A stretch of 64,000 nucleotides of DNA, taken from contig OCMG01000004.1 in assembly GCA_900215285.1 (NCBI GenBank), forward strand, positions 868,001 through 932,000, in the 5' to 3' direction. A program made the position numbers and the translations under genes. The DNA is from Ensifer adhaerens. GTDB taxonomy: Bacteria; Pseudomonadota; Alphaproteobacteria; Rhizobiales; Rhizobiaceae. Positions 33,647 through 37,830 of this stretch are shown here, piece after piece (within the stretch, counting starts at the first letter, position 1; each line of letters opens with the position of its first letter). The notes beneath the pieces were generated by a model, which did no database searches, was not told where the DNA came from, and saw only the letters and a list, made by a program, of their open reading frames with translations.

Positions 33647-34675
33647 TCAGGCCGCCTCGTTGCCCATAGGGACCGTTTCGGCAAAGGCGATAGCCCTGAT
33701 CTCATCGAGGGCGGCCACGAAGGCGGCGATCAACGTCGGATCGAAATGGCTTCCCGCCTTGCCCCGAATGTAGTCGGCAGCCTTCTCGAAAGGCCAGGCC
33801 TGCTTGAACTGCCGCTCGGAGATCAGCGCATCCAGGCTCACGGCGATCGCCACGATCCGTCCCGCTTCGGGGATGGCAGTCCCCTTCAGGCGGTGCGGGT
33901 AACCCTGGCCATCGAAGCGCTCCCGGTAGGTGCGACCGATTTCGGCGGCAAGATTCAAAAGCGACGTCGATGTCGTCCCGCCTTCCCCGGCATTTGTGCG
34001 ACGGCGGAAATCCGCCTCCGTCATCTTGCCGCGCTTGAGCCGCGCGGTGTCGGATGCCAGGGCTGTTGCATTGTCGAAGAGCGGGGCAGCCAGCCGGATA
34101 TTTCGACAGAGCATGTCGGGAAGCCCGGCAGCGCGCGCGATCGCCTCGGAATAGGCCGCGACCCGCATCCGCTGCTGTGCCGCCAGCGGGTCCTTGTAGC
34201 CCGCGGCCAGCGTGATGCGCTGGATGATTTCGCATTCCTGCTCGCGCAGCGCTTCCGCTGTGCTGACCTCCTCGTCCTGAAGACTTTCGGCATGCCGGCG
34301 CCGCGCCTCGGCAAGCGCCGCAATGTTCTGCACGCGGGCCTTGAACTCCTGGAAATCGACCGGCTTCGTCAAGAAGTCGATGGCACCTGCATTGAGCGCG
34401 TCCATGCGTGTGGTCAGTTCCAGATCGGCCGTGATGAAGATCACCGGCACATGGCTGTACCTGTCGAAATGCAGCATCTCGGTCAGGAACTCGACGCCGT
34501 TGTAAACGGGCATCATGTAGTCGAGGATCGCGACATCGAATTCGAGATCGGGCATGGCTGCCAGCGCATCCGCAGGCGAGGAAAAGGGGATCGGCGAACA
34601 ATCGCGCAGTTTCTGCACCATGCTGGTCAGAAGGCGGAGATTGGTGTTGTTGTCGTCCACGATCAGAATTTTCAT
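33647..34675 (-). CDS. response regulator with degenerate HD-GYP domain
   Basis: 342 residues. The N-terminal receiver is intact (D7-D8, phospho-acceptor D52 in AILDYMMP, K in FLTKPVD). The C-terminal half aligns with HD-GYP phosphodiesterases (RFDGQGYPHRLKGTAIPEAGRIVA, GSHFDPTLIAAF), but the metal ligands are gone. The HD pair is F200-D201, HHE has become YRE (250-252), and the ADV aspartate is V279. Only the GYP loop remains. It probably binds rather than hydrolyses, or acts as a protein-interaction output. Last gene of a four-gene operon, 15 bases after the hybrid kinase. Confidence 0.85.
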   Translation of the reverse strand: MKILIVDDNNTNLRLLTSMVQKLRDCSPIPFSSPADALAAMPDLEFDVAILDYMMPVYNGVEFLTEMLHFDRYSHVPVIFITADLELTTRMDALNAGAIDFLTKPVDFQEFKARVQNIAALAEARRRHAESLQDEEVSTAEALREQECEIIQRITLAAGYKDPLAAQQRMRVAAYSEAIARAAGLPDMLCRNIRLAAPLFDNATALASDTARLKRGKMTEADFRRRTNAGEGGTTSTSLLNLAAEIGRTYRERFDGQGYPHRLKGTAIPEAGRIVAIAVSLDALISERQFKQAWPFEKAADYIRGKAGSHFDPTLIAAFVAALDEIRAIAFAETVPMGNEAA

Positions 34676-34690
34676 GTTGGCTTCCCCCTA

Positions 34691-36916
34691 TCAAGCGGCT
34701 TTTCTGGAGACATAGCTAGCCAGCAGCGCGGCGAGCCGGTCTGACATGTCCGGCGCATCCGGCGCGTGTCGCAGCGCCTGCGCCATTTCGGCGACAGCCT
34801 TGAACCCCACGTTCGAGGCCGCGCCTTTCAGCGTGTGCAATGCCTTGTCGGCCTCAGGGCCATTGCCGGCTGCACGCGCATTCTCGTAGTCTGCCATGAG
34901 CAGCTGAGCGTCATGGAAGAACGAGCCCACGAGTTCTTCGAAAATCTCTTCGCCCAGCACGTCAACCAGTTCGGCCCGGCGGCCGGGGTCGATGCCCTCA
35001 AGGACGCCGGCAGACGCGGTTTCAACGCTTGCCGTATCAGCAGGTTGCTGAGCGCCGGGTGCCGGGCCCACGCGAACGGCAATTCCGCTCAGGATGCAGT
35101 GCAGGCGCTGCAGTGTGATCGGCTTCGGTTCGAACCCGTTCATGCCGGCGTCGCGGCAGGCGTCACGATCCTCATCGGAAGCATTGGCGGTCATGGCAAT
35201 GATGGGCGCCGTGCGGTTGGGACCTTCCTGGCCGCGAATGCGGCGCGCAGCCTCGATCCCGTCCATCACCGGCATCTGCATGTCCATGAGGATGATGTCA
35301 TAAGGCTCTGCGGCCGCGGCCGCGACAGCTTCGGCACCGTTCTTCACAAGATCCGTCGTCTGTCCCAGCCGCTCAAGGAAGCGTAGCGCAATCTGCTGAT
35401 TGACCTTGTTGTCCTCGACCAGCAGCACCTTCAGTGCCGCGATGGGTGCCAGACCCGTTGGTCGCTCGGCCGGGCCACTTTCGGGCGCGTCGATGGCCTC
35501 CACGGGCATTTCCAGCCAGAAGGTGCTGCCCTTGCCCTTCTCGCTCTCCACGCCCAAGGTGCCACCGAGGCGTTCGGCAATTTCCTTGCATATGGTCAGG
35601 CCGAGGCCGGTGCCGCCAAACCGGCGGCTGATCGAGGCGTCGACCTGCGAGAAGGGCTGGAAGAGCCTCTTGCGACCTTCCTCGTCGATCCCGATGCCCG
35701 TGTCCTGGACCTCGATCCGCAGAAGACAGGCACCGCTCGGCGCGCAGGTTTGGCGCAGCCTCAACGTGACCGTGCCGTTGCTGGTGAACTTCGTCGCGTT
35801 GCTCAGGAGATTGAGGATGATCTGGCGCAACCGGGTCGGGTCGGTCCTGACCCAGGGCTGCTCGATGCTTTCCGGCCTGTCGAGCACCAGCGTGTTGCCA
35901 CGCTCCTTGGCCCGGCTAGCCATGATATCGATGACTGTCTGTGACAGGTCGGCCACATTGACGGGCCGCATCTCGATTTCCAGACGGCCGTATTCGATCT
36001 TGGAATAGTCGAGAATTTCGTTCAGCACTTCCAGCAACGCCTCGCCGGACGAGCGGATGGTCTGGATGCCTTCGCGCACATTGTCCGGAATGCCAGAGAG
36101 CTGCAGCAATTCGGCCGTTCCGAGGATGGCATTGAGCGGCGTGCGGATCTCGTGGCCCATCGTCGCCATGAATTGCGACTTCGCCCTGTTGCCGGCATCC
36201 GCCGCCTGGTAGGCGGAGGCGAGATCGTTCGCCATGGCCTCGAACCCGAGGCCGGCATCACGCACGGCGTTCAACTGCCGGCGCAGCGTGAAGATCAGGA
36301 AGCCGACCGAGCTTGTCAGCAGGATCACGTATATGCCCGACATCCGCTGGAGATGGATCAGGGCGTCGCGGGCTTCCGCACGATTGTCGGAGATCACCGT
36401 GTTGGAAGCCAGCAGGAGCTTGTTGGTCTGCTCGTGCAGTTCATAGGCGGAGGCACGAACGGCGTCGAGCTGCGCACGAGGATCGGCCGATTTCTGCAAA
36501 CCCGAATAAACCGGGTCAATCGCATGGATCATCTGCCTGACCTTGGTACTGATCTGGCCGACATCCCCTGGCTGGATGAAGAAATCGAGGAAATGCCCCT
36601 GGCGCAGAAGATCGGCGCGCGAGTAGACGATATCGAACCGCTGCGAGAGCTTCTTGAGCTGGTCCGGCGTGATCCTGGCCGTGGCAAGGGCGAGTTCGGT
36701 TTCCATTTCCAGCTCATGTGCCTCTCGGTCCAGCTGGAAAGCAGCCCACATGGCGTTTTCGCGAATGCCATTCCGCAGCGAAGCCTGGCGGTCCGACATA
36801 TCCATGTAGAGAAAGATGAGGATGACCAGGAGAACCGCGGCAAAGGCCTGCAGCAAGGCCGTGCGCTTGCCGGCCTGCCGGAGAATCTCGCTGGTCTGTT
36901 TCCCCGGTGTTGTCAC
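34691..36916 (-). CDS. hybrid sensor histidine kinase with receiver and Hpt domains
   Basis: 741 residues. Membrane helix 1 (21-40) and helix 2 (about 194-211) flank a helical periplasmic sensor of about 150 residues. Then come HisKA with H255 (MGHEIRTP), HATPase ([22 protein letters not shown]), a receiver with D545 (ILMDMQMP) and a C-terminal Hpt domain with H694 ([13 protein letters not shown]). The full phosphorelay set suggests transfer to the flanking response regulators. The GTG start overlaps the stop of the periplasmic sulfite-oxidase-fold gene (GTGA), so the two are tightly coupled. Confidence 0.93.
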
Positions 36917-37416
36917 TCGACGACCTCGATTTCCTTGATCTGCCAGACCGAGCGGGAAAAATACTTCTCGTTATAGAGCCCCTTGTCCTCGTCGAATGGA
37001 TAGATGAGGAAGACCGGGCCTTTTTCACGCACCGACATTTCGTCGCCGTTCATGCGCACGGCCAGGATCGTGTCGAGCTTTTCGGCATCTTCGAACGGCA
37101 CTTCGGAGGCATAGTCGTTCAGCGCCTTGACGATCAGCTTCTTGCCGCTCGCACCGGCTGCGGCAAGCACGGCGCGCAGATAGGGGCCTGAAAATTCCGT
37201 CTTGCCCGTCGTCCACGGCGTTTCCATCGTCGCCTTCCGTCCGTCGAGCTTCTCCAGCATCGCCAGGTCGAATGTCGCGGTGTCGCCAGCATTGGCCTGG
37301 CTGATATGGCCCGTAATGGTAAGGATCGGATCGCCGACAGGCTTGTCGAGCGCGAAGGCGGCGGGCGCGAGCGCGAACGAACCGGCGAGAAGCAGAGCCT
37401 GGATCGAGAACTTCAT
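36913..37416 (-). CDS. periplasmic sulfite-oxidase-fold protein lacking the molybdenum cysteine
   Basis: 167 residues with a signal peptide ([22 protein letters not shown]). The remainder matches the oxidoreductase molybdopterin-binding fold: [64 protein letters not shown] and the C-terminal [10 protein letters not shown]. The protein contains no cysteine at all, so it cannot coordinate molybdenum as true members do. It lies between a receiver gene and a hybrid kinase gene and overlaps the latter. The likely role is a periplasmic sensing or adaptor subunit for the kinase (inference). Confidence 0.82.
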
Positions 37417-37437
37417 GGCATATCTCTCTTGGGATGA

Positions 37438-37830
37438 TCAGATTGAAGGTGCGGCGGCGGGGTGTCGGCGGGCAAGCAGACCGCTCATCATATGGGTGAA
37501 GCCCAGGGCTTCGATCGGCTTGGTGAGGAATGTGTCGACGCCAGCGGCCAGCGCCTCCTCCTGGAGTTCGCGCGAGGTATCGGCAGTCACCATGACGATT
37601 GAGGTTTCCTCGAAACCAGGCAGTTGCCGCACGAGGCGCACGAATTCCACACCTGTCATCGACGGCAGCATATGGTCCACGATCAGGACATCGAATCGCT
37701 GCGTCTGGCAGACGTTCAATGCCTTGAGGGGGTCTTCGCAGACCATGATCTCATCGGCACCCGTCTTCGTCATCAGGTGACGCAGAATCAGCCCGTTCGT
37801 CGGATTGTCTTCCACGATCAGAATCGTCAT
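37438..37830 (-). CDS. single-domain response regulator (CheY-like)
   Basis: 130 residues with only a receiver domain: ILIVEDNPTN, phospho-acceptor Asp in VLIVDHMLPSMTG, conserved Thr in VMVTADTS and Lys in FLTKPIE. There is no output domain. The start at 37830 follows GAGGGG. First gene of the operon receiver, periplasmic protein, hybrid kinase, second regulator; probably an intermediate or sink in the phosphorelay. Confidence 0.92.
   Translation of the reverse strand: MTILIVEDNPTNGLILRHLMTKTGADEIMVCEDPLKALNVCQTQRFDVLIVDHMLPSMTGVEFVRLVRQLPGFEETSIVMVTADTSRELQEEALAAGVDTFLTKPIEALGFTHMMSGLLARRHPAAAPSI

Follow-up and report, generated by a model that had tools for sequence, protein, structure and literature searches.

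A putative PruR-DTB pterin-sensing phosphorelay with a degenerate HD-GYP regulator in Ensifer adhaerens

What does an exported protein of the sulfite-oxidase (SUOX) fold do beside a hybrid histidine kinase and a response regulator whose HD-GYP domain looks catalytically dead? The question is raised by four genes at positions 33647 to 37830, on the minus strand, of a 64,000-nucleotide stretch of Ensifer adhaerens DNA (assembly GCA_900215285.1, contig OCMG01000004.1, positions 868,001 to 932,000), which we call the window. The original prediction knew of no described system in which a SUOX-type fold without its cofactor serves as the sensor partner of a kinase. Such systems have in fact been named PruR-DTB and called widespread in a review (PMC13259868). 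We consider it likely, and the best explanation of the locus, that it encodes a PruR-DTB pterin-sensing phosphorelay with an HD-GYP regulator as its output, which in the window's genus is a pseudo-phosphodiesterase. The families, motifs, linkage, degeneration and selection described below were read from the sequence itself.

PruR, its sensor kinase and the linked regulator

The exported protein (167 amino acids; 36913..37416, minus strand) carries an N-terminal signal peptide, assigned by inspection. It matched the PDB entries 7rkb (1.2e-39), 7kos (8.5e-38) and 7kp2 (3e-25), titled 'Pterin Binding Protein', and also 7kom (8.8e-21) under a different name. According to a figure legend in PMC13259868, 7kos and 7kp2 are the PruR proteins of Agrobacterium tumefaciens and Vibrio cholerae, respectively. 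PruR is described there as a SUOX-type fold that lacks the molybdenum-ligating cysteine and binds reduced pterins, with N102, Y104 and W160 of the A. tumefaciens protein (At-PruR) singled out for pterin contact, and the periplasmic part of DcpA is its target. The equivalent residues of the window protein, N100, Y102 and W158, were invariant in 90 of 90 aligned rows. Cysteine was absent from the window protein, in agreement with the predicted cofactor-less fold, and from 88 of the 90 mature relatives. Because of the matches to pterin-binding structures (1.2e-39 to 8.8e-21), the invariant contact residues and the lack of cysteine, we assigned the protein to the PruR type, and pterin binding is predicted for this copy, the only one in the window genome.

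Two sets of relatives were compared, namely 151 genomes of the same family, 64 of which had a PruR-like match, and 80 named relatives, the best of at least 537, a choice biased toward the window's lineage. In the alternative configuration, PruR-DTB, the gene after pruR encodes a kinase whose DcpA-type periplasmic domain carries a WX7E motif (PMC13259868). The window kinase (741 amino acids; 34691..36916, minus strand) is built of a transmembrane segment, a periplasmic helical domain, a second transmembrane segment, HisKA, HATPase, receiver (REC) and Hpt domains, the transmembrane segments having been placed by inspection. Its WX7E motif (W57..E65) was shared by 76 of 78 named kinases, the two misses (L128, L146) having short or displaced reading frames. 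Seemingly broken or shortened kinase frames were seen at the PruR loci L124, L128, L146 and L159. The periplasmic domain aligned with the DcpA-type domain of twelve GGDEF-EAL neighbours of other PruR genes at an hhalign probability of 99.0% over 213 columns, versus 0.9% for one unrelated chemoreceptor N-terminus used as control. A model of the sensor domain was all-helical, with a mean predicted local distance difference test score (pLDDT) of 86.8, and a structure search with it returned helical-bundle resemblances only, none at E ≤ 0.001. The best of 147 NCBIfam matches to the kinase was TIGR02956 (TorS) at 420 bits, below the equivalog cut-off of 676.5, and the kinase is thus TorS-like, not TorS, where a TorS/BaeS-like cytoplasmic kinase is expected of a DTB system. 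The WX7E motif, the DcpA-type domain and the TorS profile as best NCBIfam match together argue for a kinase of the DTB type, whose pairing with PruR is itself already known. Equivalents of the phosphorylation residues H255 (HisKA), D545 (REC) and H694 (Hpt) were found in 87, 85 and 83 of 88 non-redundant kinases; in the other rows, the position is a gap because the reading frame is cut or broken.

Directly downstream lies the gene for a 342-amino-acid response regulator (33647..34675, minus strand; PF00072 and PF13487) with a receiver (D52) and the degenerate HD-GYP domain. Its linkage to the other two genes was strict in the family survey. Eighteen loci, the window included, had a PruR at least 57% identical to that of the window, the next locus being at 45%; in all 17 others, PruR, kinase and REC-HD-GYP regulator stood in the same order, an arrangement far beyond chance, so that the three genes were linked in 18 of 18 genomes. 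Homologous operons do not normally lack the periplasmic gene, since each of the 35 sensor-domain profile matches in the 151 genomes had a PruR match on its own strand that ended −1 to 97 nucleotides before its start. Above 510 bits, the regulator profile had 18 matches; they fell in the same 18 genomes, each 2.2 to 2.5 kb from the sensor start. The next matches (399 bits or less) included the window genome's own paralogue (L086; G000 C2:482000-495000), a second REC-HD-GYP protein, whose HD and HHExxDGxGYP motifs are intact and whose gene lies in a cluster judged by eye to be chemotaxis-like. Among the best 80 named loci, the kinase was found in 78 and the HD-GYP regulator in 71; four of the nine loci without the regulator were at a contig edge (L092, L137, L150, L158) and five were not (L117, L120, L124, L136, L162). 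L117, L120 and L136 are Rhizobium PruR-kinase pairs.

Farther from the window, the surroundings of PruR differed. Of the more distant family loci, 23 were inspected, and these had a GGDEF-type neighbour in 16 cases and a kinase-like one in seven, and an intact HD-GYP motif downstream in none of the 23. We also took the 40 strongest matches, besides the window's own, labelled 'same class' and hence outside the window's taxonomic order: 35 had a kinase directly downstream, one a GGDEF-EAL protein, and four were unclear, their frames being split or cut. Downstream sequence reached 4.5 kb or more in 31 kinase-type loci, and only one of these 31 had an HD-GYP gene, so c-di-GMP (cyclic dimeric GMP) output is not general for DTB; L186 (G364) is the sole locus of the 40 in which an HD-GYP gene follows those of PruR and the kinase. 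Judged by these counts, the HD-GYP-coupled form is a lineage-specific DTB subtype.

The fourth gene encodes a CheY-like single receiver (130 amino acids; 37438..37830, minus strand; E7, D52, K104), and D52 and K104 were kept in 35 of 35 non-redundant rows. It lay directly upstream of pruR in all six congeners, in 32 of the 80 named loci (identity threshold 40%) and in 4 of the 17 family loci (45%; two of them congeners), and divergent CheY genes may be missed at these thresholds. pyrC was also within the stretch in 30 of the 32 CheY-bearing named loci. The CheY-like gene is an optional accessory branch in one part of the tree. These counts led us to reject a four-gene operon as the conserved unit: in the signalling unit of four genes originally proposed, PruR, kinase and HD-GYP regulator do co-occur, with the exported protein a constant neighbour of the kinase sensor domain, but the conserved unit comprises three genes.

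On the minus strand, the order is CheY-like, SUOX-fold, hybrid kinase and REC-HD-GYP genes, all four frames being open. The genes had been described as running without gaps; they are co-directional, but 21 nucleotides separate cheY from pruR and 15 the kinase from the regulator. As predicted, the pruR stop and the kinase start overlap in GTGA (4 nucleotides, 36913..36916, minus strand). With start codons picked by script, 4-nucleotide overlaps recur at 15 of the 17 family loci and at 54 of 78 named ones. The Hpt position H694 first given is correct. Pfam matches, which bore out the domain content first read for the four genes, were Response_reg (PF00072, 83 bits) for the CheY-like protein, Oxidored_molyb (PF00174, 36 bits, cut-off 24) for PruR, HisKA, HATPase_c, Response_reg and Hpt for the kinase, and Response_reg and HD_5 for the regulator. 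By Pfam, the locus is flanked downstream by an amidohydrolase, read as pyrC, and upstream by a major facilitator superfamily transporter and a MarR regulator.

The degenerate HD-GYP domain

To judge the state of the HD-GYP domain, we used the metal ligands and recognition residues of PmGH as reference (PMC4159591), the eight metal-ligand positions being E185, H189, H221, D222, H250, H276, H277 and D305. All eight were kept in 71 of 81 non-redundant regulators, from which duplicates had been removed; three differed at H250 alone and seven were degenerate. In the three (L132, L141, L145), N or Y replaces the H250 equivalent and the other ligands are intact. L040, among the 71 ligand-intact regulators, has D183S. 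Because these 71 keep the eight positions, the usual output in relatives is probably c-di-GMP hydrolysis, and a dead HD-GYP domain as a system-wide feature is ruled out: it is special to the window's genus plus one independent case.

Six of the seven degenerate regulators came from the window's genus, one from each of the six species sampled there, and the seventh from Rhizobium halophytocola (L118). In the window copy, the changes are E185L, H189Q, H221F, K225T, H276Y, H277R and D305V, and H250 is missing from a stretch that has become shorter. The residues kept are D183, D222, D308, G284-Y285-P286, I294, R314 and K317. Thus seven of the eight metal ligands are gone, as the call of a dead domain had implied, and all six c-di-GMP-recognition and GYP residues remain. 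The motifs HDxGK and HHExxDGxGYP read FDNAT and YRERFDGQGYP, so that neither enzyme motif is present. The deepest-branching congener (L085) kept HD and lost E185, K225, H250, both histidines of HH and the tyrosine of GYP. The R. halophytocola regulator (positions 8700-9788 of L118) lost H221, K225, H250, H276 and D305 and kept all six recognition residues. A regulator model had a mean pLDDT of 80.3 and a predicted template modelling score of 0.53, with PmGH (4mcw) as best structural match, which supports an HD-GYP fold.

Whether the active site was lost once or more often was examined with a tree built without the HD-GYP domain. The pattern needed two changes, and the seven degenerate rows as one clade were rejected by the approximately unbiased test (p 6e-5), the set tested having been named with the residue pattern and an initial tree already in view. 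By this tree, there are two independent losses of the HD-GYP active site. Ratios of nonsynonymous to synonymous substitution (dN/dS) were computed pairwise by the Nei-Gojobori method, dS being mostly 0.6 to 1.2. Over 10 pairs from five congeners, dN/dS was about 0.10 for the dead domain; it was lower for the receiver of the same regulator (0.045) and higher for the kinase domain (0.13) and CheY (0.175). In four groups of relatives whose HD-GYP domain is intact, that domain gave 0.03 to 0.07. Going by these ratios, selection on the dead domain is somewhat relaxed and still strongly purifying.

These data bear on the alternative that PruR-DTB sensing holds, but that in the genus the CheY-like receiver alone is a real output, the dead HD-GYP domain being a relic in decay. 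The presence of the CheY-like gene in all six congeners, the placement of both degenerations within the CheY-bearing part of the tree and the dN/dS above that of intact relatives would all suit it. Purifying selection stronger than on the kinase domain and CheY of the same operon speaks against a relic, as do a regulator frame open in 6 of 6 species and an ERFDGQGYP loop identical in 5 of 6, and we regard this alternative as unlikely. In PmGH, alanine changes at GYP, I294, R314 and K317 did not substantially lower activity (PMC4159591); their retention while the metal site was lost is what a binding role predicts. We tentatively suggest that in the window's genus and R. halophytocola the phosphodiesterase may possibly have become a c-di-GMP receptor, or an adaptor that binds GGDEF proteins, switched by phosphorylation.

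Proposed signal path and its weighing

In the path that we propose, pterin-loaded PruR would dock on the WX7E bundle of the kinase and shift its kinase/phosphatase balance. Phosphate would pass from H255 to D545, H694 and then D52 of the REC-HD-GYP regulator, in the manner of RpfC/RpfG, and, where the gene is present, also to D52 of the CheY-like receiver as a second output. In most relatives, the end of the relay would alter c-di-GMP hydrolysis by a ligand-intact HD-GYP domain. In the window's genus, the metal-free pseudo-phosphodiesterase, kept by selection, would most likely work by binding GGDEF partners through its GYP surface, or c-di-GMP.

A source of pterin ligand may be sought in L169, a candidate PruA/FolM in the window genome. 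It is a short-chain dehydrogenase/reductase with a TGGAKRIG motif, TGxxxRxG being the signature of PruA/FolM-type pteridine reductases, and its nearest solved structure is FolM (5tgd, 3.5e-85). It passed NF006597 (356 bits, cut-off 281), a model named just 'SDR family oxidoreductase'. With two models named for pterin reductases it stayed under the cut-off, scoring 182 versus 288 for NF006598, pteridine reductase, and 108 versus 249 for NF005066, dihydromonapterin reductase. A search for PruA with NF006598 gave 62 matches, none over the cut-off.

On a different account, the SUOX-fold protein would bind a molybdopterin cofactor and serve as a small electron carrier or redox enzyme, whose redox state the kinase senses. 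The Pfam label Oxidored_molyb, its usual annotation, points that way; the near-universal lack of cysteine described above does not. Cofactor-loaded periplasmic SUOX enzymes are generally substrates of twin-arginine translocation, and a twin-arginine-like pattern was absent from 89 of the 90 rows. L158 (Methylobrevis pamukkalensis) has such an N-terminus, and L044 and L105 have RR near the start. The nearest solved structures are, moreover, pterin-binding proteins with a site reported as likely too small for the molybdenum cofactor (PMC13259868). With no cysteine and with pterin-binding nearest kin, an enzyme dependent on this cofactor was rejected, and the redox account as a whole is highly improbable. 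Least probable of all is that the degenerate domain still hydrolyses c-di-GMP through an unusual metal site: RpfG is an active phosphodiesterase despite missing two of the eight PmGH ligands, but here seven and K225 are lost, and a single alanine at H189, H221, D222, H250, H276, H277 or K225 of PmGH essentially abolishes activity (PMC4159591).

Several observations weigh against the pterin-sensing phosphorelay with a selected pseudo-phosphodiesterase. The dead domain evolves somewhat faster than intact ones, and its model is weak around the former HD site (pLDDT 50 to 55 at about residues 201 to 240), so slow decay would fit too. None of the six recognition residues varied among the 71 intact regulators either, so they may be structural. 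Five of the 80 named loci have room for an adjoining HD-GYP regulator yet lack one (among them L124, where the kinase was also not found), and outside the order such a regulator is rare. The sections and passages of PMC13259868 consulted hold no experiment on a DTB system.

Comparison with known systems

PruR, DTB and their pairing are already known, and we claim no novelty for degenerate HD-GYP domains at large. Limited literature searches combined PruR with pterin, kinase or HD-GYP; among the papers listed, only PMC13259868 was, by title and abstract, about this system, and the terms 'response regulator' and 'Hpt' are absent from its main text. Within these searches, the new elements are the strict three-gene HD-GYP linkage, an Hpt-ending kinase in that unit, and, at its end, a twice-evolved pseudo-phosphodiesterase that is kept by selection. 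The linkage to a REC-HD-GYP regulator in the rhizobial family offers a concrete, testable output for PruR-DTB, and it suggests that pterin sensing came to be wired to c-di-GMP in two ways, directly through DcpA and by way of a phosphorelay. A catalytic site lost twice independently, with binding residues kept, provides a natural comparison for roles of HD-GYP domains besides hydrolysis.

The placing of a periplasmic binding protein beside a helical kinase sensor domain is shared with TorT-TorS and similar hybrid kinases, TorT, however, having the type I periplasmic-binding-protein fold, not the SUOX fold. In RpfC/RpfG of Xanthomonas, a kinase and a REC-HD-GYP regulator are joined by a phosphorelay, as is proposed for the window locus. 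RpfC has the layout HisKA-REC-Hpt and senses the diffusible signal factor, with no PruR known to take part, and RpfG, unlike the window regulator, is catalytically active. RpfG needs its GYP motif to bind GGDEF proteins; some of its outputs survive a change of this motif (PMC3749722). With PruA-PruR-DcpA of A. tumefaciens (PMC13259868), the locus shares PruR, a WX7E periplasmic sensor, c-di-GMP as the probable output currency in most relatives and, if L169 is one, a PruA/FolM-like reductase in the genome; DcpA itself carries GGDEF-EAL, whereas a phosphorelay would intervene in the window system. In PruR-DTB, as described in the same review, pruR is likewise followed directly by a TorS-like hybrid kinase whose periplasmic domain is of the DcpA type and carries WX7E. 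The review has two-gene operons, whereas the window kinase ends in Hpt and is accompanied by a dedicated, degenerate REC-HD-GYP regulator and a CheY-like gene.

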